Origin: a virus
Direction: 5' to 3' (one strand)
DNA length: 42,732 nucleotides
Virus record (IMG/VR): IMGVR_UViG_3300045972_000485
Coordinates: 1-42,732 of that record
In this document: positions 2 through 42,394 of the stretch, piece by piece
Layout: each line of letters opens with the position of its first letter
How positions within the stretch are numbered: the stretch's first letter is position 1
Program-made: the position numbers and the translations under genes
The notes under the pieces: generated by a model
Databases searched by the model: none
What the model saw: the letters and a program-made list of their open reading frames with translations, nothing else
Told to the model about the DNA's origin: nothing

Positions 2-220
2 ATAAAAATTCATGGTGGTAAAGGCAGTGCCAAATATCATGCATACAGAGGAAATCACTACACCCTTGGGCAGCTGCATAAAATGTCGACGAATGGGATT
101 GCTTTACGTGGGCTCCAAAAAAGACTATTGACTGGTAGCAGTATCGAAGACGCTATACATAAACCACTGCATAAAAATAAGCCATTCAATCAAAGAGAAT
201 TGACACACATAGAGGAATAA
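2..220 (+). CDS. 3' end of a gene with a homing-endonuclease-type helix-turn-helix tail (partial)
   Basis: The frame is open from the left edge to a TAA at 218-220, so only the last 72 codons are present. The segment TLGQLHKMSTNGIALRGLQK followed by RLLTGSSIEDAIHKP fits a short DNA-binding helix-turn-helix found at the ends of phage HNH and GIY-YIG endonucleases (pattern: L..L....GI....L..RL..G..IE.A...P). Three complete homing-type endonucleases elsewhere in the window support the reading. The catalytic part, if there is one, lies outside the window. It could instead be another phage DNA-binding protein. The motif is read by eye. Confidence 0.6.
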   Translation: MKIHGGKGSAKYHAYRGNHYTLGQLHKMSTNGIALRGLQKRLLTGSSIEDAIHKPLHKNKPFNQRELTHIEE

Positions 221-1913: not shown

Positions 1914-1923
1914 ACCTAATATT
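1914..1923 (+). promoter_or_regulatory. candidate phage late promoter (ACCTAATATT)
   Basis: Exact ACCTAATATT, 23 bases upstream of the ATG at 1947. One of six intergenic or junctional copies placed before rightward transcription units. It lies 10 bases from the palindrome that serves the divergent leftward promoter. Confidence 0.65.
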
Positions 1924-2741: not shown

Positions 2742-4427
2742 ATGGATTTTAAATCAGCAATTGAAGAAGCAAAAAAACTAATTAAGCATTTGGAAGAAAA
2801 TCCAGCTGAATTAGAAAAGTTAAATAAGGCTACTTCCCCATTACAACAAAATGCGCTTCACAGAAAAACTTCACCAAAAGGTGTTCATCAAGCTGTTGAT
2901 CCAAAAGGTGGCTCTACTGCCCATGGTGAAGCTGCAAAATTAGGAATGAAGGATACTTCGAAAGTATGGGCCAAAGAAGCTCACGGACAAGTTCGGTCAG
3001 AGCAAAAAGCAATGCCGAAACCTAATCTTCCAAAGTCTGAAATGCAAAAAGGGGATTATTTTAAAAGTAAATTAGGTAAAGTTTCTTCACATCAACCAAC
3101 ACGTACTGGCCCCGATAAAGTCCATGCCGCTGGCGGTGGTGGAATTCACGGTAAACATGACGTTAAAGGTGTTCATAGAGATAGATTAAATCAAAGAGCT
3201 GGTAGTCATGAAAAATCTCGTTTAGGGATTTTACAAGATAAGGCTAATGCAGATGTTCCAGCTCATAAAGATGCATGGAAAGAACAACATTTAATCCCTG
3301 AACATAAAGCAGTAATCGCTGAACAAAAAGCAATGCCTAAGCCTAATCTTCCAAAATCTGAAATGCAAAAATCAGCTAAAGATATGTGCAAAGAAGAATG
3401 GGCTCCAAAGTTCCATAAATCTGCAGAGAAAGGCGTTCACCAGTCCGTTAATGCAAAAGGCGGAGCAAGTGAAGCTGGCGATAGAGCTAGAAGTGCAGAG
3501 AGAGGAAAGCCCCATGGATGGGTCGAATCTTCTTATTCTCATAAACAACAAGCTAAAGAGGCTCACGGCAAAGTAATTGCTGAGCAAAAAGCAATGCCTA
3601 AGCCTAATTTACCAAAGTCTGAGCTAAATAAGGCAAGAATAGATGACGGTAAATCATTGGCCCATAAAGTGGCTTTAAGACAAAACCGTAACTCTCGTGA
3701 TGTAAAAGAAACAAGAACTCCAACTGGGCAAAAAAATAGAACAATGTCGGCTTCAAATAAAAGAGCTGGCGAACTAGAAACAAAATACAGACTACAGACC
3801 CCAGTAGGGAACTTTAATCATGTACCGGAAAGACGTCATGGTGAAAAAATCGTAGGAGCTCCTAAGAGATCAGACGAGGATAAATCAGGTGTTCATCACC
3901 ATTCAAATACATTCGCTCAAGGGCAAATGAAGAATAAGGCCGTTGATGGCCATGGAACTTTCAGTGAAAAAGGCGGTAAATCGCATAGACTTGGTGGAAA
4001 ATACCATGCACCGGGCGGAGCTCATACAGCTCATAACGATATCATGAACGCTCAGTCAAGAATTAAACCAAACCTTCCAAAGTCTGAATTCAAGAAAGAT
4101 GAACTAGAAACAGGATTAGACGTTATTCGTGACGCTAATGTTGAAACATCTAAAAAAATGCGAGAAATGTTAAATGATACAGCTGTTCAAGCGGGAAAGA
4201 TCGCAGAGAAATTTGCGTCAGGAAAAGGAACTTTGAAGGCAGCTATTGGGACTAAAAACCAAGCTGAAGAAGAAAAGAAAGAATTCAATGAAGCAGTAAC
4301 GAAAGCTGAAGTTGGGGACAAGCTACCAAACGGATTGGTTTTGTTAAAAAAGCCAACTAAAGGCAAGAAAGGAAGCAAAATTCCACCTCCACCAAAAGAC
4401 GAAACTCCTAAAAAGGAGAAGAAATAA
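2742..4427 (+). CDS. repeat protein with four KPNLPKSE motifs, 561 aa
   Basis: Basic, His- and Lys-rich, mostly disordered. KPNLPKSE occurs near residues 93, 200, 287 and 443, the first three inside a longer repeat EQKAMPKPNLPKSE(M/L). A second repeated unit, KGVHQ.V..KGG..., occurs near residues 46 and 230 and leads to AKEAHG.V...EQKAMPKPNLPKSE. The last 100 residues are more helical, and the C-terminus is a Pro/Lys tail. No enzyme motif is visible. The protein lies between a late promoter and the sheath gene, which suggests a late structural, scaffold-like or packaged protein. The repeats may be docking or processing peptides. Ends by overlapping the next start (TAATGG). Confidence 0.75.
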   Translation: MDFKSAIEEAKKLIKHLEENPAELEKLNKATSPLQQNALHRKTSPKGVHQAVDPKGGSTAHGEAAKLGMKDTSKVWAKEAHGQVRSEQKAMPKPNLPKSEMQKGDYFKSKLGKVSSHQPTRTGPDKVHAAGGGGIHGKHDVKGVHRDRLNQRAGSHEKSRLGILQDKANADVPAHKDAWKEQHLIPEHKAVIAEQKAMPKPNLPKSEMQKSAKDMCKEEWAPKFHKSAEKGVHQSVNAKGGASEAGDRARSAERGKPHGWVESSYSHKQQAKEAHGKVIAEQKAMPKPNLPKSELNKARIDDGKSLAHKVALRQNRNSRDVKETRTPTGQKNRTMSASNKRAGELETKYRLQTPVGNFNHVPERRHGEKIVGAPKRSDEDKSGVHHHSNTFAQGQMKNKAVDGHGTFSEKGGKSHRLGGKYHAPGGAHTAHNDIMNAQSRIKPNLPKSEFKKDELETGLDVIRDANVETSKKMREMLNDTAVQAGKIAEKFASGKGTLKAAIGTKNQAEEEKKEFNEAVTKAEVGDKLPNGLVLLKKPTKGKKGSKIPPPPKDETPKKEKK

Positions 4428-4660
4428 TGGCCAAGAAACAATTTGGTGACATTACCGTGAATATCGAGACCCAAGAAGATGAGGTCGTTGCCCCAGTTAT
4501 AATCGCAGAACCAGCTAGAAGAATTCTATCTTTTGAGCAGTGGTGGGCGACTCAGCAATTCCCAGCACACCTCTTTGGCCCATTACAGACTCATATGGAA
4601 AAGAAAGGATACGTCACGTCCCAAGACTTTGAAGCAGGCGTCAAGAACTTTGGGTTATAA
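4427..4660 (+). CDS. hypothetical protein, 77 aa
   Basis: Short soluble protein: an acidic N-terminal strand region, then a helical part, FEQWWATQQFPAHLFGPLQT and a C-terminal MEKKGYVTSQDFEAGVKNFG. Coupled to the previous gene by a one-base stop/start overlap. Function unknown; its place just before the sheath suggests a late gene. It probably abutted the sheath gene before the GIY-YIG endonuclease was inserted. Confidence 0.6.
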   Translation: MAKKQFGDITVNIETQEDEVVAPVIIAEPARRILSFEQWWATQQFPAHLFGPLQTHMEKKGYVTSQDFEAGVKNFGL

Positions 4661-4666
4661 GGATTT

Positions 4667-5209
4667 ATGAAGATTTACAGTATTACGAATAATATTAATG
4701 GAAAGCAATACGTAGGATTAACTACTACTCCAATAGTACGTAGATGGTCTGCGCATGTATGCTCCGCCCATTCCATTAAAGCTAAAAATAAATGCCGAGC
4801 AATATCTTCGGCAATAGTAAAATACGGCAAAGAAAACTTTACTATTAAAGAGCTTGAAACGGTCGAGGATAGAGATTTGCTTGGGAAACGGGAGGTTTAT
4901 TGGATCTCAGCGTTAAACACCGTTTCTCCAAATGGATACAATTTGCGGACTGGTGGGGAAGTCGGTTATTGCCATCATCCCGAAAGTAATGAGCAGAACC
5001 GGCAATCTAAAAAAGGGTGGAAACTCTCCCTCGAAGCTCTACAAAGAAGAAAAGACAGAAATGCACTAGTGAAAAACCCATTTTATGGGAAAAAACATAA
5101 ACCGGAATCTATAGCCTTAATGATTCAGAAAAAGAAAGCCTATTTCATGGATCGTAAGAATAAAACATTAGAACCTAATATTATTGATAATTCACAAGGA
5201 GACTCATAG
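4667..5209 (+). CDS. GIY-YIG homing endonuclease, 180 aa
   Basis: Homing-type DNA endonuclease that cuts related phage genomes and spreads by repair. The GIY-YIG domain covers about residues 1-95: YSITNNINGKQYVGLTT carries the paired YSI/YVG motif, with the conserved Arg (RRW) near 25, Glu in REVYWI near 76 and Asn in NGYNLRTGG near 90. The C-terminal part has a NUMOD3-like DNA-binding motif (NPFYGKKHKPESIALM). It is a free-standing gene between a small late gene and tail sheath. Its final codons (EPNIID) read through a late promoter copy and its stop overlaps the sheath start. GGAT precedes the ATG. Confidence 0.9.
   Translation: MKIYSITNNINGKQYVGLTTTPIVRRWSAHVCSAHSIKAKNKCRAISSAIVKYGKENFTIKELETVEDRDLLGKREVYWISALNTVSPNGYNLRTGGEVGYCHHPESNEQNRQSKKGWKLSLEALQRRKDRNALVKNPFYGKKHKPESIALMIQKKKAYFMDRKNKTLEPNIIDNSQGDS
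5173..5182 (+). promoter_or_regulatory. candidate late promoter for tail sheath
   Basis: Exact ACCTAATATT, 26 bases before the sheath start codon, located inside the 3' end of the endonuclease gene. Confidence 0.65.
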
Positions 5210-7989
5210 TGGCACAATCTTATATTACTGACTCGGGATCACAACTTTATGTGCCGGGAACGTATGTTAATCAGGAAGTAAAAACACAAGCATCGAACAT
5301 TGGTACAGCCGGTGTCCTAACTCTTATCGGTGAAGCCGATGAAGGCCCAGATTTCTCACTAGAGGCTGATCTTTCAGACGTAGTTTACACTCCTGACCAA
5401 TACGGTTATGTAGTAAGTAAATTCGGTAGCGGTAGAATTGTAGAAGCTTTTGCTCATGCAACTAAAGCAGCGAACGACCCAGCTATTACTGGTGCTGTTC
5501 AAGCAATCCGTATCGTTAAAACAAACAAATCAACGCCTGCTACTCTTTCAGTTACAAAAGCTGGATTCGGTGGATATGCGGATCTTGCAGCAAAGAAATT
5601 TGGATACCCGGGAAATCTTGTAAAGATTAAGTCGACAGTATCTCAAAACGAAATTGCTCCAAAAGCAGAAGGCATCCTTTACGCACCAAACTTCGCAGCT
5701 GCTTCAACTTTTGGATTACGTCCAAATGGTGCAGCGGTTAATACAGTTTCAGTTAACGTAAAAATGATTGGTAGCGATTTAGCTGCAGCAATCAATTCAA
5801 TCGATCTAGGGATCTTAGCAACTGGTGGGAAAGTAATTAAGCCATTAACTGGTTTAGGAGCCCTTACTAAGACTATCTCTACAGCTCTAGTATCTGGTTT
5901 CACTGATCGTTTAACAATCACTCTTCAATCAGGATCAATCTTTTCGACTGTTCCAGTAGAAGGGCAAACATTAATTATCCCAGACAGTGACTTTGGTGTT
6001 GGACACGTTTCAGCTATCAAAGGAACTTCATCAGTTAATAACGCTGGTGCATACGTTGTTGTTCAAGTAGTAAACACTGCTTCAAACGCCTCTATCACAG
6101 TTAAAAAACTTTCTGGCCCTGCAGGAGCAGTAATTGGTGTAGCTTCAGGTGTAGTAAATGCAGCTGACGATGATATTATCCTATTCTCAAATATCAATAT
6201 CTCTAATAAAACTGGTATGGATCGCCAAGCAACTGTTGGCCTAACTGGTACTTTTACAACAGTATCAAATGACGGTGCAAACGTAGTTGTTTCAGTTCCA
6301 ACTGGATTCGTAGCTCAGCCAAAAGCTGGTGACATCGTGAAGTACTTAACTGCTTTCGCTGGTGTTAACGCTGGTTTCTACGAAGTAGTATCTTCAACAA
6401 TCAATACAGTAAACTTAGTTAGACTTTCAGACGGTTCAGCTGGTGCAACTGGTTCAGCAAACGTAGTAGTAGCAATTACTCAATCAACTCAACCATTCCT
6501 AGTATTAAAACCAGAAATCGATGGTGTTGGTAAAACGCTTGAGTTCATTGGTGACGTAGAAGCTATCTTTTTAGATAAATCTACTTATGCTGGTGCATCT
6601 CTTTCTAACAAAATGTTAGTATCTGCTTCTGAAAAGAAAATGGCTTTCTTAGTATCTAAAGGAACTCAACAATCTACTTATACAATCGGTGGAGATGTCG
6701 TTGTTCAAATCGGATGCTCTCAAGAAAATTCATTCATTAAAGTTCTAGCTGATAGGATTGAATTCTACAAATCAAGTACATTAGCTTTTACTTGTGCATT
6801 CAACCAATTCAAAATCTTAAAAGACTTAGTAGACTTCATTAACTCTAAGAAAGATTTCACAGCGGCAGTTACTCTTGCAAAATACACAACTTTTGCTTGT
6901 AGTGCTTTACCAAAAGGAACATTCACTATTTCAGTTGCTGGAACTAGCAAGTCATGTCTACTTAAAAAAGATGCTTACGATTTCAAAACAATCGTTGGGG
7001 CATCACCACTTATCTCTGTATCAATGGTTGGGGAAGGATTACCAGAAGTAATCACGCCAGACCAATTCTTAGATGGTGGATCAAAAGGTGGAACAACTTC
7101 TGCAGACTTCATTGCTGCAATCGAAGCATGTAAAAAACTTGACCTTAACTTTATCGTACCACTTATCTCTCAAGATGCTGACGCAGATATCTTGGAAGGT
7201 GAAACTGAATCTTCTTCTACTTACGTAATTGAAGCAGTTAACCAATATTTATCAGGTCACGTAATCGAGATGTCTACTGAGAAAAGAATGAGAAATCGTT
7301 CAGCTATCGGATCTATCTGGACTACTTACGATCTTGCAAAAGAAGCAGCTAATAACTTGGCAAACTTCAGATTCGGTCTAGCATTCGAAAAAGTGCGTAA
7401 CCCATCTGTAGACGGAACAATTAAAACATTCCAGCCATGGTACGCAGCTGTTAACGCTGCAGCTATGCAATTAGCAGCGGGATACAAAGGGATCGTTAAA
7501 AAAGGATCTCAAATCACTGGATTAATCTCTCCTGCAGGATTCGATTACACAAATCCGGGTGATCAAGAAGACGCTTTAAAAGCTGGTCTATTGTTCATGG
7601 AAAGAGTTCCGACTGGTGGATTCCGTTGGGTATCTGACCAAACAACTTACTCAATCGATAACAACTTCGTTTACAACTCTCTACAAGCTGTTTACGTATC
7701 TGACTTAATGGCCCTTACTTTAAAGGTTCGTTTCGACCGAGCTATCGTTGGTAAATCAGTTGCGGAAGTTTCTGCAGCTTCAGCTAAATCTTTACTTGAA
7801 ACAGAAATGTTCAACTTCTTACGTCTACGTTGGATCGCTCCATCGGATGATGCAGTAAAAGGTTACAAAAATGTTTCGATTAAATTAACTGGTGGAGTAA
7901 TGAGAATTGCTTTCGAAGCTAAAATCGCTGGATTAATTTACTTCGTACCAGTTGCAATGGCGATCTCTCAAGTAGAACAAACAGCATAA
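5209..7989 (+). CDS. contractile tail sheath protein, 926 aa
   Basis: Forms the outer contractile tube of a myovirus tail. The N-terminus (YVPGTYVNQEVK, then GVLTLIGEADEGP) and the C-terminal region, with long Thr/Ser/Val-rich strands and a final domain ending IYFVPVAMAISQVEQTA, fit the sheath family in layout. A late-gene conserved block near residues 690-760 (EMSTEKRMRNRSAIGSIW, NPSVDGTIKTFQPWY, GFDYTNPGD) matches the core sheath domain. At 926 residues it is larger than T4 gp18 (659), so surface domains have probably been inserted between about 150 and 560. Start is GTG with AGGAG upstream, overlapping the stop of the endonuclease. Tube protein follows. Confidence 0.88.
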   Translation: MAQSYITDSGSQLYVPGTYVNQEVKTQASNIGTAGVLTLIGEADEGPDFSLEADLSDVVYTPDQYGYVVSKFGSGRIVEAFAHATKAANDPAITGAVQAIRIVKTNKSTPATLSVTKAGFGGYADLAAKKFGYPGNLVKIKSTVSQNEIAPKAEGILYAPNFAAASTFGLRPNGAAVNTVSVNVKMIGSDLAAAINSIDLGILATGGKVIKPLTGLGALTKTISTALVSGFTDRLTITLQSGSIFSTVPVEGQTLIIPDSDFGVGHVSAIKGTSSVNNAGAYVVVQVVNTASNASITVKKLSGPAGAVIGVASGVVNAADDDIILFSNINISNKTGMDRQATVGLTGTFTTVSNDGANVVVSVPTGFVAQPKAGDIVKYLTAFAGVNAGFYEVVSSTINTVNLVRLSDGSAGATGSANVVVAITQSTQPFLVLKPEIDGVGKTLEFIGDVEAIFLDKSTYAGASLSNKMLVSASEKKMAFLVSKGTQQSTYTIGGDVVVQIGCSQENSFIKVLADRIEFYKSSTLAFTCAFNQFKILKDLVDFINSKKDFTAAVTLAKYTTFACSALPKGTFTISVAGTSKSCLLKKDAYDFKTIVGASPLISVSMVGEGLPEVITPDQFLDGGSKGGTTSADFIAAIEACKKLDLNFIVPLISQDADADILEGETESSSTYVIEAVNQYLSGHVIEMSTEKRMRNRSAIGSIWTTYDLAKEAANNLANFRFGLAFEKVRNPSVDGTIKTFQPWYAAVNAAAMQLAAGYKGIVKKGSQITGLISPAGFDYTNPGDQEDALKAGLLFMERVPTGGFRWVSDQTTYSIDNNFVYNSLQAVYVSDLMALTLKVRFDRAIVGKSVAEVSAASAKSLLETEMFNFLRLRWIAPSDDAVKGYKNVSIKLTGGVMRIAFEAKIAGLIYFVPVAMAISQVEQTA

Positions 7990-8898: not shown

Positions 8899-9174
8899 TT
8901 ATGCTCCCTGACCTATAATACTTTTAAATACTGGGGTATCGACAAGTGGTAAGTCTGAGGATTTTGATTCCTCCATCTTAGGTTCGAATCCTAATACCCC
9001 AACCATTTTTTCAAGCATTTTTACTTCCAATTCCATCCCAATGCGATCTTTATAGTCAAAATTAATTAACTTAACTTTTAAAGCGTCGATCTGGGCTTGG
9101 ATTACTTCAACTGGCTGCCCTTTATATACTCTTTCTGTCGCTAATCTTTTTAATGTTCTGAATGATCGTGGCAT
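8899..9174 (-). CDS. hypothetical protein, 91 aa, with a tRNA gene antisense to its 3' part
   Basis: The first 57 residues are basic and helical (RTLKRLATERVYKGQPVEVI, KVKLINFDYKDRIGMELEVK). AGGAG lies seven bases before the ATG, and the spacing to neighbours is operon-like. The last 35 residues (VGVLGFEPK onward) are simply the reverse complement of the tRNA-Gln gene at 8932-9005, so this tail is dictated by RNA structure and probably has no fold of its own. Function unknown. Confidence 0.6.
   Translation of the reverse strand: MPRSFRTLKRLATERVYKGQPVEVIQAQIDALKVKLINFDYKDRIGMELEVKMLEKMVGVLGFEPKMEESKSSDLPLVDTPVFKSIIGQGA
8914..8919 (+). promoter_or_regulatory. -10 box (TATAAT) of the tRNA gene
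   Basis: A perfect TATAAT lies 12 bases before the first tRNA base, in ACCTATAATAC. No good -35 box is seen 17 bases upstream. It would drive rightward transcription of the tRNA through the antisense of the 91-aa gene. Confidence 0.5.
8932..9005 (+). tRNA. tRNA-Gln (anticodon UUG)
   Basis: A full cloverleaf can be drawn. Acceptor stem TGGGGTA/TACCCCA, D stem GAC/GTC, anticodon stem GAGGA/TCCTC with loop TTTTGAT (anticodon TTG), T stem TTAGG/CCTAA with loop TTCGAAT, discriminator A and encoded CCA. It closely resembles bacterial tRNA-Gln, including the unusual first U-A pair. It decodes CAA, a codon common in this AT-rich phage. It overlaps the opposite-strand gene at 8899-9174. Confidence 0.95.
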
Positions 9175-9182
9175 ATAGACTC

Positions 9183-10106
9183 CTATCTGTTGATATAACT
9201 TTGTAAATAAACCCAGTGATCTGCTCTTAAAGTCGTATTCAATGAATAACTATCATGTCCATCAGGAGAGTTATTCGGATCATTCGGATCATAAGCAGCA
9301 CCACTGAAATGAGTTATGTCGTAGTTATATTGACTGATTTCAGCTTCGGCCATTTGTATAGCTTGAGTCGATCCAGTTAACACACTGGCAATAAAAGCTT
9401 TCGTATAACCGCTCGTTGGGTAATTAACAAACAAGTTCGACAATCTATTCCCAGCATATGATCCAACTTGGTTAAGACACATTAAAACTCCTGCATCCGG
9501 TGCTAATGAAGATGAGAAATAGATGATGTTATTCGTTGGATTTCTATAAGTATTCACGAGTGATGAAGCTCCACCAACAGTATTGATTCCAGCATCACTA
9601 ATTCCGTTCACACACTTAATAACCGCAGTATAAGTAAAGTTGGCCAACATTGCTTTACGAGTTGATAAACCACCATAACCGCTTAGAGTATTTGTATCAT
9701 CGTAAGTTTCCCAACCATTACCAACTAAGATTTCATGCGTTCCATCTGGGTAAGTCTTACATTCAATATAGCTCCCGCTGACAATCCCAAACCCAGTATC
9801 TTTGTAAACGAATGGATAATCAGTCGCATTCCAACGAGCATAGTTAGTTCCTAAGCCTGTATTGATGGCCACAACCGAAGCCGAGTATTGAGTGGCATAT
9901 GTTGCAAAGATTGCTTCAGAAGTTGAGTGATGAGTATCAACCCCTTCAACTAATGCGGCATTATTGTTGTTGTTATTTTGATTCTGGTTATTATTATTGT
10001 TGGTCGTAGTGGTAGTTGCCGTATCAGCAACTGTGCTACCAGCTCCGCCGCCACCTTTACAAGCTACAAAAGACATTAGTAAGAACATAAGCATGATATT
10101 TTTCAT
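9183..10106 (-). CDS. secreted lipoprotein with poly-Asn linker, 307 aa
   Basis: The signal peptide MKNIMLMFLLMSFVAC ends in a lipobox, so the Cys at about 16 would be lipidated after cleavage and the protein anchored in an envelope membrane. A low-complexity linker follows (GGGGAG, Thr run, then about 15 Asn/Gln) to about residue 50, then a globular domain of about 255 residues with several Cys and many Tyr/Asn, which I do not recognise. The upstream in-frame ATG at 10160 lacks a ribosome site and lies in the promoter, so the ATG at 10106 with GGAGG is chosen. It has the best promoter in the window. It may modify the host surface or exclude other phages, which is inference. Confidence 0.8.
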   Translation of the reverse strand: MKNIMLMFLLMSFVACKGGGGAGSTVADTATTTTTNNNNNQNQNNNNNNAALVEGVDTHHSTSEAIFATYATQYSASVVAINTGLGTNYARWNATDYPFVYKDTGFGIVSGSYIECKTYPDGTHEILVGNGWETYDDTNTLSGYGGLSTRKAMLANFTYTAVIKCVNGISDAGINTVGGASSLVNTYRNPTNNIIYFSSSLAPDAGVLMCLNQVGSYAGNRLSNLFVNYPTSGYTKAFIASVLTGSTQAIQMAEAEISQYNYDITHFSGAAYDPNDPNNSPDGHDSYSLNTTLRADHWVYLQSYINR

Positions 10107-10131
10107 TTGGAACCTCCCAGTTCTTACTCTG

Positions 10132-10160
10132 ATTATAATGCATATGACTATTTTAGTCAA
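10132..10160 (-). promoter_or_regulatory. consensus promoter with operator for the lipoprotein operon
   Basis: Minus strand: TTGACT (10160-10155), 17-base spacer, perfect TATAAT (10137-10132). The palindrome TGACTAAAATAGTCA covers the -35 box. A second, imperfect copy (AACTAAAATAGTCTA, 10170-10184) lies 10 bases upstream. Confidence 0.85.
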
Positions 10161-10181
10161 TAACTAATTAACTAAAATAGT

Positions 10182-10523
10182 CTATTTTTTCGTATCTAAG
10201 TTCTTTAAAATAGGTCTAAGGCTAGATTCCAGCTCCCCTTGAGGATACGGCCCAATCAATAACTCATATAATTCGATGACCGAGACATCTCTGAGTTTCA
10301 CTAGAACCTTAGACCGTCTCGATACACCGTTACTATCTTTTTCCATTGGAACATTAATTAAATGAGCTCTTTTCAATTGAGACTGAATCTTATTGAAAAA
10401 CATTTCCGTACAGTCAAAATTTTTGTACACGTATTGAATAAGATCTTCTCTCGCAACTGGTTCGGTGCGACTAAGTTGATTCTTCATTAAATCATACGCA
10501 ATTAAAAAACTTTTCGGAAACAT
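10182..10523 (-). CDS. hypothetical protein, 113 aa, possible winged-helix
   Basis: Helical start (FLIAYDLMKNQLSRTEPVAR), then FFNKIQSQLKRAHLINVPME followed by SRRSKVLVKLRDVSVIELYE. The helix-helix-strand pattern resembles a winged-helix DNA-binding fold, but this is weak. GAGGAG lies upstream of the ATG. It follows the HTH gene at 10535-11203 in the same operon, so a regulatory partnership is possible. Its stop codon overlaps the distal palindrome of the next promoter. Confidence 0.55.
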   Translation of the reverse strand: MFPKSFLIAYDLMKNQLSRTEPVAREDLIQYVYKNFDCTEMFFNKIQSQLKRAHLINVPMEKDSNGVSRRSKVLVKLRDVSVIELYELLIGPYPQGELESSLRPILKNLDTKK

Positions 10524-10534
10524 AAAAACTCCTC

Positions 10535-11203
10535 TTATTTCGCCAGAGCTTTAGCTGCTTTCTCAGCGGCTTTAGCTTCTTTTTCAGCTTGCTTAATTCT
10601 ATCTTCCAAAGTCTTAATCTTGGCCACAAATCTTTGTGAGCTCTGAATACGCCAGATAGTATTTTTCTCTGCATATTCGTCGACGATTTGTACTGCTATT
10701 TGTGTCCCGGGCTCTATTACAAACTTGTTTAAGCCTACGAGCTCTCTCAGTTCCAACACTGCTTGATCCAATTCGCCGTATAATGGCTTGATGGTATCTA
10801 AAGTAGCATTGATACTAATAATCGTACTGACTAATCTTTGAGCCTTTTCTTCAGGCTGTTCAATTACAACTGGTGCCGGAACAACTTCAACTTCTACGTT
10901 TTCCACTTCCCTCTCCTTGTTAAAAGAAGGATTATTGATGAAGTATCTTAAAGCGTCAATGACTTGTGGAAAATCACTGTCATTACAACGTCCATAATAT
11001 TCGAAATCATGCAAGATACTTTTCATTGGCCGACCTTCCGGGGTCTTATCAGGAATCTTGTCAGCCCGCTTCTCTTGAATGACTCGATCAATCAATAATG
11101 GTGAAAGATCTACGGATTTACTGATTTGATTAATGGACGCTTTATCCCGATACATAATCATGATAGTTCTTTTAGTATCTTCGCTAATCTGTTTCTTGCC
11201 CAT
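10535..11203 (-). CDS. helix-turn-helix protein with C-terminal coiled coil, 222 aa; candidate repressor
   Basis: Residues 5-45 (TKRTIMIMYRDKASINQISK, then SVDLSPLLIDRVI) fit a resolvase/transposase-like helix-turn-helix. Residues 100-190 are mixed, and the C-terminal 40 residues are an Ala/Lys/Glu coiled coil (AEKEAKAAEKAAKALAK), likely for multimerisation. It is transcribed directly from a promoter bearing two tandem palindromes (11234-11265), the layout expected of an autoregulated repressor. It could instead be an activator or a structural DNA-binding protein. The start ATG has GAGGG upstream. Confidence 0.65.
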   Translation of the reverse strand: MGKKQISEDTKRTIMIMYRDKASINQISKSVDLSPLLIDRVIQEKRADKIPDKTPEGRPMKSILHDFEYYGRCNDSDFPQVIDALRYFINNPSFNKEREVENVEVEVVPAPVVIEQPEEKAQRLVSTIISINATLDTIKPLYGELDQAVLELRELVGLNKFVIEPGTQIAVQIVDEYAEKNTIWRIQSSQRFVAKIKTLEDRIKQAEKEAKAAEKAAKALAK

Positions 11204-11221
11204 AAACCCTCACTTATCATC

Positions 11222-11265
11222 ATGTTATTCTTTTTAACTCAAATAGTCAAGACTATAATAGTCAA
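11222..11265 (-). promoter_or_regulatory. leftward promoter with tandem operators
   Basis: Minus strand: TTGACT (11250-11245), 17-base spacer, TAACAT (11227-11222). Palindrome TTGACTATTTGAGTTAA covers the -35 box at 11234-11250. A second palindrome with perfect arms (GACTATAATAGTC, 11251-11263) abuts it, centre-to-centre about 15 bp. Such pairs usually allow cooperative binding. Confidence 0.78.
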
Positions 11266-11276
11266 AGCATGAAAAA

Positions 11277-11286
11277 ACCTAATATT
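11277..11286 (+). promoter_or_regulatory. candidate late promoter (ACCTAATATT) for the appendage genes
   Basis: Exact ACCTAATATT, 58 bases before the ATG at 11345 and 11 bases from the tandem operators. Confidence 0.65.
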
Positions 11287-11344
11287 CCTTTAGTAAAACA
11301 CGGGTTTTACAGGCCAAGGGTGGCCAAATGTTCAAGGGAACGCT

Positions 11345-13191: not shown

Positions 13192-13201
13192 ACCTAATAT
13201 T
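13192..13201 (+). promoter_or_regulatory. candidate late promoter (ACCTAATATT) for the fibre gene
   Basis: Exact ACCTAATATT immediately after the TAA of the previous gene and 36 bases before the ATG at 13238. No palindromic operator nearby. Confidence 0.65.
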
Positions 13202-17820: not shown

Positions 17821-17849
17821 TTGACTATTTGAGTCAATGGGTATAGAAT
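17821..17849 (+). promoter_or_regulatory. rightward promoter with palindromic operator
   Basis: TTGACT (17821-17826), 17-base spacer, TAGAAT (17844-17849). The -35 box lies in the perfect palindrome TTGACTATTTGAGTCAA (17821-17837). It drives the lipoprotein metallopeptidase gene and is the only rightward member of the operator set. Confidence 0.78.
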
Positions 17850-17866: not shown

Positions 17867-18556
17867 ATGAAACACTTATCAATTCTATTCCTGATCGTTC
17901 TTGCTTCATGTAAGCCATCAGATAAATATTCAGTTGATAACCTTTACCCAATACCTGCTAATCCAACTATTATTTCCAGCGATCTTGCTTCAACTGAGCA
18001 AATCGAAGAACCTCAATTACAGCCATACGTTGACGCATTTTATAATTTAAAAAGTGATGCTGGAATTGGTGCTGATGGGCATAGAGTTTTTTACAAGTTA
18101 AAAGACCTGAGTTCATATGGCAGTATCCTTGGTCGTTGTGAAACATACAATAATGCAAACATTGTTTACGTAGATAATACGTTTTTTGCCAGTGCTACAG
18201 CATGGGATATTAAATCAGTTGTGTATCATGAATTTGGTCACTGTGATTTAGGTCGTGCGCATAGAACAGTTTACTGGCAAGGAACAATGGCCAATTACTC
18301 AGGGATCAAACCGAATTGGGGTAGCTATACTCGTTACTTATCTGACGGAGTAACGGCTAATCCAAACTATAGAGGGGAATGGCCACTATCTTTGATGCAC
18401 CGTTCAGTTGTTCGTCAAGCAAAATTTCAAGTTGAATATGACTATTACGTATATGAATTATTTCACGAAGGATTGTCAGAAGTCCCAACTCTTGGTAACA
18501 GTAGTCAAAATTGTGAAGCTCGTTTTGAGTTAGACGGTAACATACATTTCGAATAA
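17867..18556 (+). CDS. lipoprotein zinc metallopeptidase, 229 aa
   Basis: The signal peptide MKHLSILFLIVLASC ends in a lipobox with the lipidated Cys at about 15. The zinc site HEFGH begins near residue 121 and continues CDLGRAH, giving HExxH plus a third His seven residues on; with the Gly this recalls the metzincin layout but has one extra residue. Likely an outer-membrane-anchored or periplasmic protease acting on envelope proteins. Its own operator-controlled promoter sets it apart from the late structural unit. Target unknown. It might aid lysis, superinfection exclusion or host surface change. Confidence 0.8.
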   Translation: MKHLSILFLIVLASCKPSDKYSVDNLYPIPANPTIISSDLASTEQIEEPQLQPYVDAFYNLKSDAGIGADGHRVFYKLKDLSSYGSILGRCETYNNANIVYVDNTFFASATAWDIKSVVYHEFGHCDLGRAHRTVYWQGTMANYSGIKPNWGSYTRYLSDGVTANPNYRGEWPLSLMHRSVVRQAKFQVEYDYYVYELFHEGLSEVPTLGNSSQNCEARFELDGNIHFE

Positions 18557-21350: not shown

Positions 21351-21860
21351 CTATGCAGCGAACAATCCTGTTACGCCTTTAGCTTTTGGGTATTTAAAAA
21401 AAGCTCTGTTTTTATTTTTACATAATTCCTTATACTCTGCATGATCAATTTTACCACCACGGATTTTACTTAAACTAAAAGTTATGCCATCACTTGATAC
21501 AGATGTTTTTAAGACCGCCTTAATCTTTTGACCTTTTTCGTAAGTTATACAAGCAAATTCAGAATACCAGCTTTTTGCTTTTACGTCATTGCATGAATAA
21601 AACGGAATCGATCTATCAATACCTTCAACCGTTACGTAGCCATCGCCATCTGGACGAGACCAATTAACTGTTGCAATTACTTCTTTTCCATCATACTGCT
21701 CAGCTAATTCAGCGTATTCATTATGAAGGCTACGACGTACTTCCCGAACCTTTTCAAATGCTGTAATACGAGCTTTCTTAGTTTTTAGGGAATAGGCACG
21801 TTTTTCAAGAGTTGTGAGTTCGTTTCTCAGTACCATTCTTGATTCGTTTGTTGTTGCCAT
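21351..21860 (-). CDS. hypothetical protein with OB/cold-shock-like C-terminal domain, 169 aa
   Basis: Residues 1-60 are strongly helical and basic (NELTTLEKRAYSLKTKKARI). Residues 60-125 (VIATVNWSRPDGDGYVTVEG, SIPFYSCNDVK..., YEKGQKIKAVLKTS) follow a strand pattern like a cold-shock or OB fold, which binds RNA or single-stranded DNA. The similarity is weak and read by eye. First gene after the operator promoter, so probably an early regulator or nucleic-acid binder. GGAGG precedes the ATG. Confidence 0.6.
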   Translation of the reverse strand: MATTNESRMVLRNELTTLEKRAYSLKTKKARITAFEKVREVRRSLHNEYAELAEQYDGKEVIATVNWSRPDGDGYVTVEGIDRSIPFYSCNDVKAKSWYSEFACITYEKGQKIKAVLKTSVSSDGITFSLSKIRGGKIDHAEYKELCKNKNRAFFKYPKAKGVTGLFAA

Positions 21861-21889: not shown

Positions 21890-21918
21890 ATATTAAACTA
21901 TATGACTCAAATAGTCAA
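21890..21918 (-). promoter_or_regulatory. leftward promoter with palindromic operator
   Basis: Minus strand: TTGACT (21918-21913), 17-base spacer, TAATAT (21895-21890). The palindrome TTGACTATTTGAGTCAT covers the -35 box. Same geometry as the other members of the set. Confidence 0.75.
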
Positions 21919-21929
21919 CATATTATTTG

Positions 21930-21939
21930 ACCTAATATT
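21930..21939 (+). promoter_or_regulatory. candidate late promoter (ACCTAATATT)
   Basis: Exact ACCTAATATT, 11 bases from the palindrome on the opposite promoter and only 6 bases before the ATG at 21946. If it is a -10-like element, the transcript would begin at or near the start codon. Confidence 0.6.
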
Positions 21940-21945
21940 ATCTTT

Positions 21946-22572
21946 ATGAAAATCCACGATAAGTATCTACAAAGAGAAGGTATTCAGACTCGTAATGGGG
22001 CAATGGCTAAACAGCCGGGTCGCTATGAGTTGGACAAAGAAAGCCTACAGCACCATTTAAACCATGGATCTTACTCGATTCTATCGGCAGGTAATCCAAA
22101 TGCCCAGAAGCTGGATGACAAAGAAAATGCTAAAAGACATGCAGACTTACAAAAAGAACTAGTGGCCCATGGAGCTATTTTCCATGAAGGGAAAGGCGTT
22201 TATGGTGGGCATTCAGAACCAGTAATTATGGTTCACCACAGAGGCAACGTGACCCCAGAACTAATTGAGAAACTGGGTAATAAGTACGGACAAGAATCAG
22301 TCTTTCACAGCAATGCGAATAACCATGAGCTCAAATATGTCACTGGGGCCCAAGCTGGTCATTACCATACTGGGAAAGGTCATGAGTTCGGTGATTCATT
22401 CGATGATAACTTTACGGATATCCCAGCATCAGGAAAATTCCAAGGTAATTTAGATTTCGATACGGTTCATAAAAGTAGCCATAAAGAATTAATGCACTAC
22501 GAGTTCCCGCTCGCATACGGCAAAAAAGCCAAGGTGAAGCACATTGTTAACACTAATCATTTCTACAATTAA
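21946..22572 (+). CDS. DUF3293-like protein, 208 aa
   Basis: Residues 20-130 contain YSILSAGNPNAQKLDDKENA, then KRHADLQKELVAHGAIFHEG and VYGGHSEPVIM, ending KYGQESVFH. This matches from memory the order of the DUF3293 family, small proteins of unknown role seen in phages and bacteria. The C-terminal 75 residues are His-rich. No signal peptide or membrane helix. No ribosome site before the ATG at 21946; an internal ATG at codon 20 is an alternative. Placed behind a late motif. Confidence 0.7.
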   Translation: MKIHDKYLQREGIQTRNGAMAKQPGRYELDKESLQHHLNHGSYSILSAGNPNAQKLDDKENAKRHADLQKELVAHGAIFHEGKGVYGGHSEPVIMVHHRGNVTPELIEKLGNKYGQESVFHSNANNHELKYVTGAQAGHYHTGKGHEFGDSFDDNFTDIPASGKFQGNLDFDTVHKSSHKELMHYEFPLAYGKKAKVKHIVNTNHFYN

Positions 22573-24961: not shown

Positions 24962-24971
24962 ACCTAATATT
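24962..24971 (+). promoter_or_regulatory. candidate late promoter (ACCTAATATT) for the tape measure
   Basis: Exact ACCTAATATT seven bases after the previous stop and 32 bases before the ATG at 25004. Confidence 0.65.
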
Positions 24972-37004: not shown

Positions 37005-37844
37005 TTACATATTCCTAAATTCGTCTTTTACTTCACTAACAAAATCAGTGAACCTTGTAGTAGTAATAATCTCTGGGTGCCAGCACAATCCAGCATCAAC
37101 CAAAGAATACTCTTTCATAATCTTTGAGCCTTGGATCTTCTTACCATCTTCCCCAGTTTCACGCCCCATAAGCCATAGATGGTCACTGATAGAAGCTGCA
37201 GCGGTTACATCATGGGTAACAACAATGATCGTATTTAACTCGTGCATATTGGCTATACGGCTCAGTAAAGAACAGGTCTTCTCAAGCATTAATAAATCTA
37301 ATCCAGAGAATGGTTCATCCATTAACAAGAAATGCTCAGAGCATAGGACTTGCTGGATAATCGCCGCTCTTTGGCGTTGGCCACCACTTAATTGAGCCGG
37401 GTATAAATTACGTTTATCCGCCAATTCGAATTCATTCAAGTATTCCAGAACTTTTTCTTTGGCTATGTTAGCATTCTTTTCTTTTTGCATTGCCGATAAT
37501 AGCAAATTAGAAAAAACTGTACGGTGCTCAAATAATGGGTAGCTCTGGGCCACTACGCCAATCTCTCCTGCTTGCACAGGTTTACCTGAGTTATGGACAC
37601 TAACCAACCCACTTGTAGGAGTATTAAGCCCACTAATAATACGACACAACTGACTCTTACCAATTCCTGAAGGGCCTAAGAATCCAACAATTTGTCCAGT
37701 TGTAGAGTTCGGTCGAATAATATCTTTAATAGAGGCATTAACTCCTCTCAAAATACTCTTCCCTTCATACTCTAATGAGACATTGCTAATCTCTAAAAGA
37801 GTTTCGCCGTATGTAAATGAGTCCATATATTTTAAGGTTGGCAT
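37005..37844 (-). CDS. ABC transporter ATP-binding protein (NitT/TauT type), 279 aa
   Basis: Nucleotide-binding subunit that powers an importer. All motifs are present: Walker A GPSGIGKS near 57-64, Q-loop Gln near 100, signature LSGGQRQR near 152, Walker B LLMDEP near 173 with catalytic Glu 177, and H-loop His near 211 (VTHDV). The size and EYEGKSILRGVNASIK opening fit the nitrate/taurine/sulfonate importer family. Start ATG has GGGGATTC upstream and overlaps the previous small gene. Fully intact, so likely active. Confidence 0.9.
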   Translation of the reverse strand: MPTLKYMDSFTYGETLLEISNVSLEYEGKSILRGVNASIKDIIRPNSTTGQIVGFLGPSGIGKSQLCRIISGLNTPTSGLVSVHNSGKPVQAGEIGVVAQSYPLFEHRTVFSNLLLSAMQKEKNANIAKEKVLEYLNEFELADKRNLYPAQLSGGQRQRAAIIQQVLCSEHFLLMDEPFSGLDLLMLEKTCSLLSRIANMHELNTIIVVTHDVTAAASISDHLWLMGRETGEDGKKIQGSKIMKEYSLVDAGLCWHPEIITTTRFTDFVSEVKDEFRNM

Positions 37845-38053
37845 TCAGAATCCCCTTCGGGCTTATCTAGCTTCCAGACACTCCTAAAAGTTTCAGTATC
37901 GAGATCCCCTTGTTCATGTCTTGTTATTTGATTAACAATAGTCAGGAGATTAATTGCATGGTCTGGATTAAACATTCCAGTCAACAGCCTAATCAAGGCA
38001 ATGGCATCAATTTTTTTATCTAAGTACTTTTTAAGTAAATCACTAATTTTCAT
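37832..38053 (-). CDS. small protein inside the transporter operon, 73 aa
   Basis: Helical, MKISDLLKKYLDKKIDAIAL then IRLLTGMFNPDHAINLLTIV. Start overlaps the permease stop by four bases (ATGA); the 3' end overlaps the ATPase start by 13 bases. No membrane helix. Such a tightly coupled small gene may regulate or assemble the transporter, which is inference. Confidence 0.6.
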   Translation of the reverse strand: MKISDLLKKYLDKKIDAIALIRLLTGMFNPDHAINLLTIVNQITRHEQGDLDTETFRSVWKLDKPEGDSECQP

Positions 38054-38835
38054 TTACGCTCCGTAAGTAAATTGCTATATGGGCAAAAGAGGCTCTTCAT
38101 TAATCCAATTGCGTAATCCTGTCCTAATCCCATCAGTAATACCATTAATTGAATGGCCATAACAGAGGACAAGTTAAACTGTTTATTAACATTTAATAAC
38201 ACTGTTCCGACCCCACCTTCTGAGCGACTAATCCCTTCAACAAAAGAAATCATTAACCAGCTCATCGCAGCGTTCTGTCTCATTACATCAAATACTTTAT
38301 CGGCCTGGCCAAGGATAATTACTTCCCAAACCACTTCCCATTCTTTCATGCGTAAAGTCCGGGCCAGATCGAATTGAACTTTAGGGATAGAATTTAATAC
38401 ATCTGCCATTGATGTTACAAAAAATACGGATACTGAAAACACCAATAAAGAGAGTTTCAGTGTATGTGCGGAACTAGACATTAAAGTAAAAAAGAAAGTT
38501 AGCCCTACCATTGATAAAAACCGCAGCTTGCTAACGAATCCAACAATTGGTCGAAAGAAAGGTAGGGTCGTAAGATAAGCCAATATAAGAGACACGATTG
38601 TTGAGTAAGCAATCGCCTGAATGTTTAAATTAAAACTGATGAATAAATCACTACCGATTCCCTTCCCCCATAGATCAGTTAAGGAATGGAATGTCTCGCT
38701 TGGAGTCGGTAAAAAAACAGAAGGTGAGAGGAACCATACCACGCAGAGTAAAGCTATTTGGGCATATACTAACATCATGGCGGTAGATTTATTTAAAGTC
38801 TTATTGAACGTAAAAATATGTATCACAGTATCCAT
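38050..38835 (-). CDS. ABC transporter permease (SsuC/NrtB-like), 261 aa
   Basis: Membrane channel subunit. About six hydrophobic segments (e.g. AMMLVYAQIALLCVVWFLSP, YSTIVSLILAYLTTLPFF, LSMVGLTFFFTLMSSSAH). The EAA-like loop that contacts the ATPase is FDLARTLRMKEWEVVWEVII, then LGQADKVFDVMRQN. Length is normal for the family. GAGGGTGAG before the ATG. It sits three genes downstream of the OmpA-fused binding protein and one before the ATPase. Confidence 0.85.
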   Translation of the reverse strand: MDTVIHIFTFNKTLNKSTAMMLVYAQIALLCVVWFLSPSVFLPTPSETFHSLTDLWGKGIGSDLFISFNLNIQAIAYSTIVSLILAYLTTLPFFRPIVGFVSKLRFLSMVGLTFFFTLMSSSAHTLKLSLLVFSVSVFFVTSMADVLNSIPKVQFDLARTLRMKEWEVVWEVIILGQADKVFDVMRQNAAMSWLMISFVEGISRSEGGVGTVLLNVNKQFNLSSVMAIQLMVLLMGLGQDYAIGLMKSLFCPYSNLLTERK

Positions 38836-38849
38836 CTCACCCTCTTATA

Positions 38850-39062
38850 TTATTCGAAGTTTGCTTCAGCAATTGCTACGCAAACTTTATTAAGATCCCA
38901 GTTATTGCCCCATCGAGTTTCACAGGCATTAAGAAGATTATCAAGGTCAGCAATGCTACACCATACATCATCTTCCTGACCAATAACTTCTTTCACTACA
39001 CAATCTTGCAATGCAGCTATATTTTCATTTAAAACACTTTTTACAACAAATTTTATCGTCAT
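38850..39062 (-). CDS. small protein, 70 aa
   Basis: MTIKFVVKSVLNENIAALQD, then VIGQEDDVWCSIADLDNLLN and ACETRWGNNWDLNKVCVAIA. Soluble and acidic. The ATG at 39062 overlaps the previous stop by one base (TAATG), which settles the start over an upstream frame extension. Function unknown; member of the transporter operon. Confidence 0.6.
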   Translation of the reverse strand: MTIKFVVKSVLNENIAALQDCVVKEVIGQEDDVWCSIADLDNLLNACETRWGNNWDLNKVCVAIAEANFE

Positions 39063-39541
39063 TATAGAACCACCGCATAAACGATCGCTGCTAAAAATAC
39101 GACAATTACTATTCCAACAAACCAATGGGTCTCAGTATTCACTACCCCCGATTGTTGTACAATGATTGGCTGTTGCTGTTCCACAACTACTTGTTGCGGT
39201 TGATCATTTACGTAAACAACTTGTCTTGTAGGAGCAAGGGTATGGCCGAGCAATACTCCACCAACTACAGCACCCGCAACAACTCCACCAGAATATCCTC
39301 GTTGTCTTTCAACGATTGTAGTGTGGTTAATAACCGTTGTTGGAGCAACTGACGGACGAGTAATCGTCGCCGGACTTCCGCTGCTACGGCTTCCACCAAA
39401 ATAAGATCTCGAAGGTGACGACGAGAAGCTTGATCTACTAGAAGACGAAGAAAAACTAGATCTTGATCCACCTGAATATCCCCCACGAGCGAAAATAGTT
39501 GTACTGATCATTAACAAGAAAACTATTAGTAACCCTTTCAT
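39062..39541 (-). CDS. Ser/Gly-rich exported membrane protein, 159 aa
   Basis: Signal peptide MKGLLIVFLLMISTTIFA; then a Ser/Gly/Arg low-complexity region to about 60 (SRSSFSSSSSRSSFSSSPSR), a Val/Gln-rich part (VVYVNDQPQQVVVEQQQPII) with a Gly-rich motif (GGVVAGAVVGGVLLG) that looks like a glycine-zipper, and a C-terminal membrane helix (WFVGIVIVVFLAAIVYAVVL). Likely spans or decorates the envelope, with glycine-zipper oligomerisation possible. AAGGATGAATT before the ATG. Confidence 0.65.
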   Translation of the reverse strand: MKGLLIVFLLMISTTIFARGGYSGGSRSSFSSSSSRSSFSSSPSRSYFGGSRSSGSPATITRPSVAPTTVINHTTIVERQRGYSGGVVAGAVVGGVLLGHTLAPTRQVVYVNDQPQQVVVEQQQPIIVQQSGVVNTETHWFVGIVIVVFLAAIVYAVVL

Positions 39542-39552
39542 AATTCATCCTT

Positions 39553-39575
39553 AAAAAAATGGGGCCGAAGCCCCA
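39553..39575 (-). terminator. rho-independent terminator after the binding-protein gene
   Basis: Minus strand: ATGGGGC, TTCG loop, GCCCCAT, then TTTTTT. It lies within the operon, right after the OmpA-fusion gene and before the Ser/Gly-rich gene. Readthrough must be partial if permease and ATPase share the promoter, giving more binding protein than transporter. Confidence 0.85.
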
Positions 39576-39583
39576 TTGGTTAA

Positions 39584-41374
39584 TTATTCACCAAGTAACA
39601 CAATTTGAACTCTTCTGTTCGCTGCACGACCTTTCTCAGTTCCGTTGTCCTCAACTGGATCGCTAGATCCATGGCCTTTAACTTCAAAACGAGAATCAGG
39701 GAAATTTTCTGGTGCTTTAGCTTGTAGGAAAGCTTTAATAGCTGCAGCTCTTGCTTGTGATAAAGCAATGTTCTTAGTTTCATCACCAGTATTATCAGTG
39801 TATCCATTAACTTTAATGAATAATCCAGTAATCGCTAAACTGTCTTTCAGCTCAAGTAATTGTTTAACTCCTGCAGGTGTTAAAGTCGCTTTACCGATAT
39901 CAAAATTAATTGAATAGTTCTTCGCTGAAACCACACTTCCAGTAGCCGATTTAGTATATGATGGTACGTCAGCTGCACTTCCAGCCTCGTTCATAACTGC
40001 TTGGGCTCCTGTGATGAAAGACTTGTCTTCTAATTCTTTTACATCAGGGATAGGTGTTGCTTTGAAAAGTTCTGGGTATTGTTGTACAGCAATTGTAGAG
40101 AATGTTGTGTACGTTGAACGGAAATTGTCGTTTGAACCCGGAACAAGTCCAAAAAGAATTAGGTTGTCTGCGAGATTGTTTACTGCAGAACCACCTAATT
40201 CAACTTTATTTCCTTCACGATCAGTTTCAACTACGCCTTTAAAATACTTGTACCAGTACTTAGCATCTTGGTCGGCATAAAGTTTTGCTGATAGCTCAGC
40301 GGCTTTCATAAGTGATTTATCAAATGCTTTTACCTGATCCCCACCTTCGAAGATTGCGGCTACCATTTGAGTCACTTCTGGTCTATTTGCTTCAAAAAAC
40401 GCTCTTGATCCAATGACTACTGAAGGCATTTGTGAACGGTATTCTTTCGAAGAGACAACTTTAACTAAGCCTCCACGTTGTTGAACCGCTGTTACATCCC
40501 CCGGTGTCCAAGTAACGATTGCATTAATACAAACTTTCTTGATTTCACTAGTTACTTTCCCGTCCTTTACTACTTTACGGTCATCACATTTTTTAGCTAC
40601 GTAATCAGCCGCTGCAGCATTATAATCCGCAGAAGAGATCCAATTAATTGCGTCTGCATCCCAAGTTTTTTCATCTGGGTTGTTCTTTATCCCGTTATCA
40701 CCGGCCCATTTAAGTGCAATATTCCAGTCACCATCACGTAATACACCGGCAACTAATATTCCTTTAGCATTTTTTGGGTCACGTTTTACGTCAGGTGGTG
40801 CCATGAAAGCATCTTCTCCACGAGAATATCCCGGTGAAGCAATGACGGCTAATTGATATTTATCCCCAAGTTTCTTTAGCTGTGGATTAACTCCTGCAGC
40901 GAATTGACCAGCTCCATCACCCATTATGATAACGAAATTTGCCCCGGTAGAACATTGTTTTGCTCCGCCTGATATTTCTTTTGCGCATGCAATCAATTCT
41001 TCTTGCATTTTAACAGTATCATCTTGACGAGTTAATTGTAGATTTACTCCACGTTTCGCCATTAATGAGCCTTTAGATGTTTTAGCTCCACCATTTGCGA
41101 GGATTAGACCCATTTGGCTATTCCATTCCCAGATAGATCCACGAATCAAGACGCTTTCAACTGAGGCATCTCCTGATGTTGGAAGAGCTACTGGTGTTAC
41201 GTTCTGTACTTGAGCGTCTTTAACGTCTGGTAATACAGCTTTTGTTGGTACTAGAGCTGACATGAATCCAGTTTGTGGGATTAACCCGAAACGGTTAGCG
41301 ACTTGTACGCCACCGTAAAATGTTGCCGCAACGATCACGGCTAAAACGATTTTTGCTTTTGGTTTTAAATGCAT
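39584..41374 (-). CDS. membrane-anchored substrate-binding protein fused to OmpA domain, 596 aa
   Basis: Three parts. Residues 8-27 are one membrane helix (KIVLAVIVAATFYGGVQVAN), with no lipobox. Residues about 70-430 form a periplasmic binding-protein-like domain of the nitrate/taurine/phosphonate type (e.g. FVIIMGDGAGQFAAGVNPQL, VVIGSRAFFEANRPEVTQMV). The last 110 residues are an OmpA-type peptidoglycan-binding domain (FDIGKATLTPAGVKQLLELK, LSQARAAAIKAFLQ, NRRVQIVLL). Together it would bridge the inner membrane and cell wall. AGGAGG precedes the ATG. RefSeq has bacterial proteins of this type (binding protein/OmpA family), from memory. Confidence 0.85.
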   Translation of the reverse strand: MHLKPKAKIVLAVIVAATFYGGVQVANRFGLIPQTGFMSALVPTKAVLPDVKDAQVQNVTPVALPTSGDASVESVLIRGSIWEWNSQMGLILANGGAKTSKGSLMAKRGVNLQLTRQDDTVKMQEELIACAKEISGGAKQCSTGANFVIIMGDGAGQFAAGVNPQLKKLGDKYQLAVIASPGYSRGEDAFMAPPDVKRDPKNAKGILVAGVLRDGDWNIALKWAGDNGIKNNPDEKTWDADAINWISSADYNAAAADYVAKKCDDRKVVKDGKVTSEIKKVCINAIVTWTPGDVTAVQQRGGLVKVVSSKEYRSQMPSVVIGSRAFFEANRPEVTQMVAAIFEGGDQVKAFDKSLMKAAELSAKLYADQDAKYWYKYFKGVVETDREGNKVELGGSAVNNLADNLILFGLVPGSNDNFRSTYTTFSTIAVQQYPELFKATPIPDVKELEDKSFITGAQAVMNEAGSAADVPSYTKSATGSVVSAKNYSINFDIGKATLTPAGVKQLLELKDSLAITGLFIKVNGYTDNTGDETKNIALSQARAAAIKAFLQAKAPENFPDSRFEVKGHGSSDPVEDNGTEKGRAANRRVQIVLLGE

Positions 41375-41382
41375 AATGCCTC

Positions 41383-42393: not shown

Positions 42394-42394
42394 C

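Follow-up and report, generated by a model that had tools for sequence, protein, structure and literature searches.

In phage phi29, a section of PMC3100819 describes a site for protein p4 that overlaps the -35 box of an early promoter and adjoins a divergent late promoter with a poor -35 (promoters A2b/A3). A comparable layout, with an operator over an early -35 box beside a divergent late promoter, is found in the window, i.e., the whole stretch of viral DNA analyzed here. The two systems also differ in several respects: p4 has an unrelated fold, recognizes a 15-base spaced target and works together with p6, whereas the candidate regulator in the present case is of the Rrf2 type. Moreover, unlike phi29, the window contains several such junctions, and late activation, viewed from the sequence alone, is a possibility here.

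Late promoters of the T4 type (gp55) are described in part of PMC2988020 as -10-only elements that have no -35 box. The late motif of the window is likewise a -10-only element with no conserved -35 (34 sites from 6 sequences), and relatives of this phage encode a sigma-region-2 protein which, like gp55, may recognize it. The motif itself, NCCTAATMTT, is distinct from the T4 late box, TATAAATA. Among the Rrf2 repressors (IscR, CymR, NsrR), the core of the IscR Type-1 sites is given as GACT-N5-AGTC in a portion of PMC6599224, and the operators of the window share this core. Unlike IscR, the candidate protein of the window is about 110 aa long and is devoid of the Fe-S cysteine set.

The window, a virus record, is 42,732 bases long. 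Its tail sheath protein (positions 5209-7989; 926 aa) shows 36.7% identity, over the full length, to the sheath of Myxococcus phage Mx1, and it also matches contigs in IMG/VR, the longest of which measure about 160 kb; because of these sheath matches, the window is assigned to a large, Mx1-related myovirus, of whose genome it forms a part. The structural genes are oriented rightward, and several short accessory operons located between them are oriented leftward. A search of the open-licence literature for phage Rrf2 regulators and for Mx1 returned nothing on either subject; one listed paper mentions "Rrf2" a single time.

The records used for comparison are in part non-independent: L010 lies inside G004, G018 and G017 share 99.98% identity across 22.8 kb, and G015 and G024 largely coincide. 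The genes of the relatives were called by a crude script that missed the leftward genes of G017, and the counts of "divergent" arrangements in relatives are therefore lower bounds. One of the late-motif scans left out motifs less than 100 bases from the end of a record. Scans of the viral_contigs set for the operator together with the late motif gave no match in the exact form and 16 loci in a relaxed form, none of which encodes a relative, as judged by tblastn searches with 32 proteins of the window; when the operator was sought by itself, 19 loci were obtained, with no relative among them. Single-protein searches with 10535-11203 and 21351-21860 did not find relatives either.

The late motif, ACCTAATATT, occurs in its exact form seven times on the plus strand of the window and not at all on the minus strand, and its reversed control is absent. 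When up to one mismatch is allowed, the count rises to 14, compared with 5.0 expected, and none of 100 shuffles reached this number. Four of the exact copies are free of an operator: that of the tail sheath gene (5173-5182, +), which is kept in relatives, those at 13192-13201 (+) and 24962-24971 (+), and one at 31240, deep within a gene. In the relatives, the element upstream of the sheath gene reads CCTAATATT or CCTAATCTT. Within 75 bases before the sheath gene, CCTAATnTT is present exactly at 22 of 74 loci and with up to one mismatch at 39 (9 of 83 loci had been dropped because their match did not extend to the beginning of this gene). The corresponding numbers for the loci with a sheath match of E = 0 are 17 and 21 out of 21, a set that includes three near-identical pairs (L088/L089, L010/L011 and L086/L095). 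In whole records of relatives the strand of the motif agrees with the direction of the structural genes, with plus/minus counts of 0/13 in G020, 0/12 in G022 and 21/0 in G023, the reversed controls giving 0/0, 0/0 and 2/0, respectively. Alignment of the 34 late sites revealed no conserved upstream block, and a -35 box for the late promoter was therefore rejected.

The sequence-only reading had interpreted this motif as a late promoter, and the comparisons bear this out: judged by its strand bias and its recurrence before the sheath gene of relatives, CCTAATMTT is a family-wide, -10-only late promoter motif. Its natural reading is that of a promoter most likely recognized by a phage sigma-like factor. 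A protein of Mx1 matches Sigma70_r2 with an E-value of 8.9e-4, below the Pfam cut-off, and the sigma factor family phrog_351 with an E-value of 3.6e-7. Homologues of this sigma-region-2 protein were found in four of the six records searched; the window, itself a genome fragment, contains none. We infer that a protein of this Mx1 type would read NCCTAATMTT. The sheath copy of the motif lies inside the 3' end of a GIY-YIG homing-type endonuclease gene (4667-5209, +), situated between gene 4427-4660 and the sheath gene; in locus L008, the late motif directly follows the homologue of 4427-4660.

The operator was searched for as TTGACTN5AGTCAA. With up to one mismatch, the window contains five such sites, and the reversed control none; two further operators, at 10168 and 11249, carry two mismatches (of 12 positions in the case of 11249). 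The operators cover the -35 box and spacer of five sigma70-type promoters of the form TTGACT-17-TAnnAT, three of which belong to the divergent junctions. At junction 1, operator TTGACTCAAATAGTCAA (1887-1903) covers the leftward promoter 1903-1875 (TTGACT-17-TAGTAT); at junction 2, the outer operator TTAACTCAAATAGTCAA (11234-11250) overlaps the -35 box of promoter 11250-11222 (minus strand, TTGACT-17-TAACAT); and at junction 3, operator ATGACTCAAATAGTCAA (21902-21918) covers promoter 21918-21890 (minus strand, TTGACT-17-TAATAT). The remaining two are located over the -35 boxes of a leftward promoter at 10160-10132 (operator 10144-10160; TTGACT-17-TATAAT) and of a rightward promoter at 17821-17849 (operator 17821-17837; TTGACT-17-TAGAAT), the latter preceding a lipoprotein-like gene. 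The operator at 10168-10184 forms a pair with that at 10144 and overlaps the end of the Rrf2-like gene. There is no late motif near 10144, 10168 or 17821. By its position over the sigma70 -35 box, the palindrome occupies the place where a repressor would be expected to bind.

We rejected the interpretation of the palindrome as an extended early promoter element: neither the site at 10168 nor that at 11249 is accompanied by a matching -10 at a distance of 17 bases, and the second half-site is missing from the early promoters of relatives. Comparison with the IscR Type-1 core, YYGACTRWWWYAGTCRR, gives 15-16 matches of 17 at all seven window sites, and 12, 15 and 15 at the three sites of G017. 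Against the 25-base Type-1 consensus, the window sites score 17-19 of 25, and scores of 17 and 18 are common (90 and 26 window positions, respectively); the outer bases are thus at background level, and the reading as full IscR Type-1 sites was rejected. Two lipoprotein-like genes, 9183-10109 (-) and 17867-18556 (+), each possess an operator-covered sigma70 promoter of their own, and for the second a weak homologue exists in G010, transcribed leftward from a junction with an early/late gap of 2.

At the three divergent junctions, the palindrome TTGACTnnnnnAGTCAA ends 10, 11 and 11 bases 5' of ACCTAATATT, exactly where the sequence-only reading had placed both elements. The gap of 10 bases at junction 1 leads to the late motif at 1914-1923 (+), located 33 bases 5' of the ATG at 1947. 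At junction 2 (11.2 kb), a second, inner operator (AAGACTATAATAGTCAA, 11249-11265), which shares a 2-base overlap with the outer one, is followed after 11 bases by the late motif at 11277-11286 (+), ahead of the operon starting at 11345. At junction 3, the 11 bases separate the operator from the late motif at 21930-21939 (+), 16 bases 5' of the ATG at 21946. The same reading had assigned to every junction a leftward sigma70-like promoter and a rightward late motif. Such a pair is indeed present at each, but at 11.2 kb the leftward promoter uses the outer of the two overlapping operators and its -35 box is 26 bases away from the late motif. Consequently, the spacing that stays constant runs from operator to late motif, and not from one promoter to the other.

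The junctions measure only 85-141 bases from start codon to start codon. A recent duplication of one junction was rejected as the origin of the others, as the bases between and around the operator and the motif differ. For gaps distributed uniformly on 0-35, the probability that three fall within one base is 0.0055, and for four gaps, including that of relative G017, it is about 0.0003-0.0016 (uniform on 0-35 or 0-20); both values are post hoc and indicative only.

G017, whose sheath is 45% identical to that of the window, contains the palindromes TTGACTTTTTAAGTCAA, TTGACTTGATTAGTCAA and TTGACTTGGCCGGTCAA. The last of these is found at the junction orthologous to that at 11.2 kb, over the -35 box of a leftward TTGACT-17-CATACT promoter, and is followed by 11 bases and then by ACCTAATCTT; the intervening bases differ from those of the window. 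Of 195 late motifs, drawn from 18 sequences, 15 are preceded at no more than 40 bases by a leftward TTGAC promoter, compared with about one expected by our own arithmetic from the genome-wide density (0.05-0.17 per kb and strand). Where a palindrome is present, the early/late gaps are 10, 11 and 26 in the window and 11 in G017. The gaps without a palindrome are 0, 0, 0, 1, 1, 2 and 2 (G010, G011 and G023), 31 (G010), 34 (G004), 37 (G011) and 39 (G022). The seven leftward early promoters of G011, G023 and G010 with a gap of 0-2 are positioned about one helical turn from the 10-11 bases of the window and G017.

The proposal that the fixed spacing reflects function is thus partly supported. The spacing recurs in G017, the only relative in which the palindrome is also present, and at 11.2 kb an extra operator, not the promoter, preserves it. 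The gaps of the other relatives vary, which is an outcome that the sequence-only reading had itself named as refuting, as far as spacing as such is concerned. On these comparisons, the fixed spacing is a property of the palindrome junctions and not a rule of the family.

In a survey of 86 sequences (2.79 Mb, partly redundant), palindromes with up to two mismatches were collected if a late-like motif followed them within 60 bases; the gaps were 10, 11 and 11 at the window junctions and 11 in G017. The other entries were the outer operator (26), one site on the opposite strand of the window (3-4), one in G017 (42-43) and those of the record that duplicates G017. Controls, consisting of palindromes of the same form and likewise allowing two mismatches, gave 1, 10, 6 and 3 matches near late-like motifs, with scattered gaps. 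A two-mismatch match alone therefore means little, and the weight of the evidence lies in position, promoter and orthology taken together. A de novo search for palindromes with 6-base arms found none in the relatives.

The candidate repressor is a probable Rrf2-type regulator of 113 aa, encoded by the second gene (10182-10523, -) of the leftward operon at junction 2. The Rrf2 identity is clear in G017, where the leftward operon encodes a protein of 114 aa that matches the Pfam Rrf2 family with an E-value of 3.7e-14, above the cut-off, and where the stop codon of this gene abuts a palindrome, followed by a gene for a secreted protein. The window gene is syntenic with it, ending at the operators 10168/10144, which are followed by a lipoprotein-like gene. 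The 30-bit cut-off of PF02082 is exceeded by the proteins of G017 (53.4 bits) and L010 (43.1 bits); the 10182-10523 protein gave no PF02082 match at E-values up to 10. Aligned with the profile of the relatives' proteins (hhalign), it reaches a probability of 69.5 and an E-value of 4.2e-5 over 96 columns, and its identity to the small homologues is 19-24%. Similar proteins occur in G004/L010, G020, G022, G010, G016 and G013, and in G011 a copy is located elsewhere in the genome. A profile of six of the relatives' proteins matches Rrf2 chains of the PDB, among them 1YLF, IscR and CymR.

An AlphaFold model of the window protein, fed with these homologues, is of middling confidence (mean pLDDT of 71); a Foldseek search with it gave CymR and 1YLF as top matches (E-values of about 0.01-0.02), with PadR, MarR and other winged helices mixed in. 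The translation contains a single cysteine, and the IscR-type set of Fe-S ligands (three Cys and one His) is absent; such ligands are not needed in every Rrf2 protein. We regard the Rrf2-type identity of 10182-10523 as probable, and its product as the probable binder of the palindromes. Other relatives possess the Rrf2 gene and lack the palindrome. The first gene of the same operon (10535-11203, -) codes for a rival candidate of 222 aa, with a weak match to the helix-turn-helix family HTH_38 at an E-value of 0.015, below the cut-off, and a host IscR-like protein is another possible binder.

The reading we favour, with modest confidence, is that the phage encodes an Rrf2-type repressor which, bound at sites close beside late promoters, shuts early accessory operons. 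Each junction would then constitute a back-to-back promoter pair, in which the leftward promoter would be served by host sigma70 and drive an accessory early operon, and the rightward, -10-only promoter would be read by the sigma-like factor of the relatives. A dimeric repressor, most likely the 10182-10523 protein, would bind the palindrome over the -35 box and spacer and thereby shut the early accessory operons, including its own. If the late motif represents the -10 element, the operator would occupy approximately positions -42 to -26 relative to the late start, within the region that an RNA polymerase would cover, and the leftward sigma70 polymerase, the repressor and the late polymerase would compete for a single stretch of DNA. 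Since the operator would fall within the space of the late polymerase, both promoters could not be held at once, and once the leftward promoter was shut, the late promoter would therefore be cleared. The fixed 10-11 bases would place the repressor and the late polymerase side by side. Of the elements of this scheme, the motifs, their positions and conservation, and the geometry of the promoters are observed.

Such proximity may also serve for active coupling, as the sequence-only reading had proposed, whereby the protein, centred at about -34, would touch the late polymerase and activate or time late transcription while repressing leftward, in the manner of p4 between A2b and A3 of phi29. The spacing indeed follows the operator, in that the weaker, extra operator at 11.2 kb is the one placed at 11 bases, the promoter being at a distance of 26, and G017 maintains an equal distance despite different intervening bases. 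An upstream helper is also plausible because the late promoters have no -35 box, and IscR, an Rrf2 protein, offers a precedent, being described in a section of PMC8593673 as both repressing and activating from sites at -35. However, the operator is absent from at least three well-placed late motifs of the window and from nearly all of those in relatives; as most late motifs have no operator, late transcription in general needs no such protein. We regard this coupling as unlikely, and hold the same view of its fullest version: a phage Rrf2-type two-way switch acting from one fixed site, which would repress sigma70 early operons and recruit or time a -10-only late polymerase, the 10-11 base spacing being kept by the operator-sharing phages despite extensive divergence.

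The predicted overlap between the operator and the upstream footprint of the late polymerase would equally suit a protein that blocks both directions and holds the late operons until it is lost or diluted. This seems improbable to us: the structural genes on the right-hand side run in the same direction as operator-free late genes and would need equal timing, and the spacing leaves the -10 element uncovered. We give still less credence to mere packing, in which short intergenic regions crowd the operator and the late motif together and the equal gaps are coincidental. The short distances between start codons, the other short gaps in relatives and the small number of junctions would be in keeping with it, but all four operator junctions have 10-11 bases, with the low, post hoc probability given above for four gaps, and the fourth of them comes from a diverged relative.

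Beside the 11.2-kb junction, the late leader contains three tandem hairpins (11293-11342, +), located in the stretch that separates the late motif from the start codon at 11345 and strongly supported by covariation. Hairpin leaders occupy the orthologous place in L010 (13676-13728), L178, L194, L187, L196, L159 and L224, and hairpins 1 and 2 mostly have ANGG-like loops. Among eight aligned leaders, 12 of the 18 pairs show changes on both sides, and the covariation score is 0.76, versus 0.30 in shuffles and no more than 0.16 when slid; the alignment left out a ninth sequence, G010, whose leader is without the hairpins. The covariance model gave one match each, at the junction, in eight distinct phages, including the window. 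Across 82 sources there were 10 strong matches, two of them duplicates (L010/L063 and L214/L224), and one weak match (E-value of 0.29). Seven of the eight distinct matches, like that of the window, are sequences from which the model was built, and no new phage was therefore added. In 77 further sources a single weak match was obtained (E-value of 0.07), and Rfam yielded no match for the leader in the window or for the L010 copy. The leader apparently occurs once per genome.

Additional genes of the window were also noted. The first gene to the right of junction 3 (21946-22572, +) matches DUF3293 and the S-adenosylmethionine lyase family; T3-type S-adenosylmethionine lyase enzymes are anti-restriction proteins, and by analogy an anti-restriction function is possible for this gene. 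Among the products of a leftward cluster (37005-42664, -) are an ABC-transporter ATPase, a protein that weakly matches a permease and one of 596 aa with an OmpA domain at its end; the window scan found no operator in this cluster. A tRNA-Gln gene (8932-9005, +) lies on the strand opposite to ORF 8899-9174.

The present analysis provides a testable early-to-late switch for a large and almost unstudied family of myoviruses. Its parts are a late promoter shared throughout the family, an Rrf2-type phage protein as the candidate repressor, together with its operator, and the junctions at which the two are joined. The covarying RNA leader nearby would be another control element of a late operon, distinct from the switch. 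Should the coupling prove true, an Rrf2 protein and a -10-only promoter would together make up an early/late switch.
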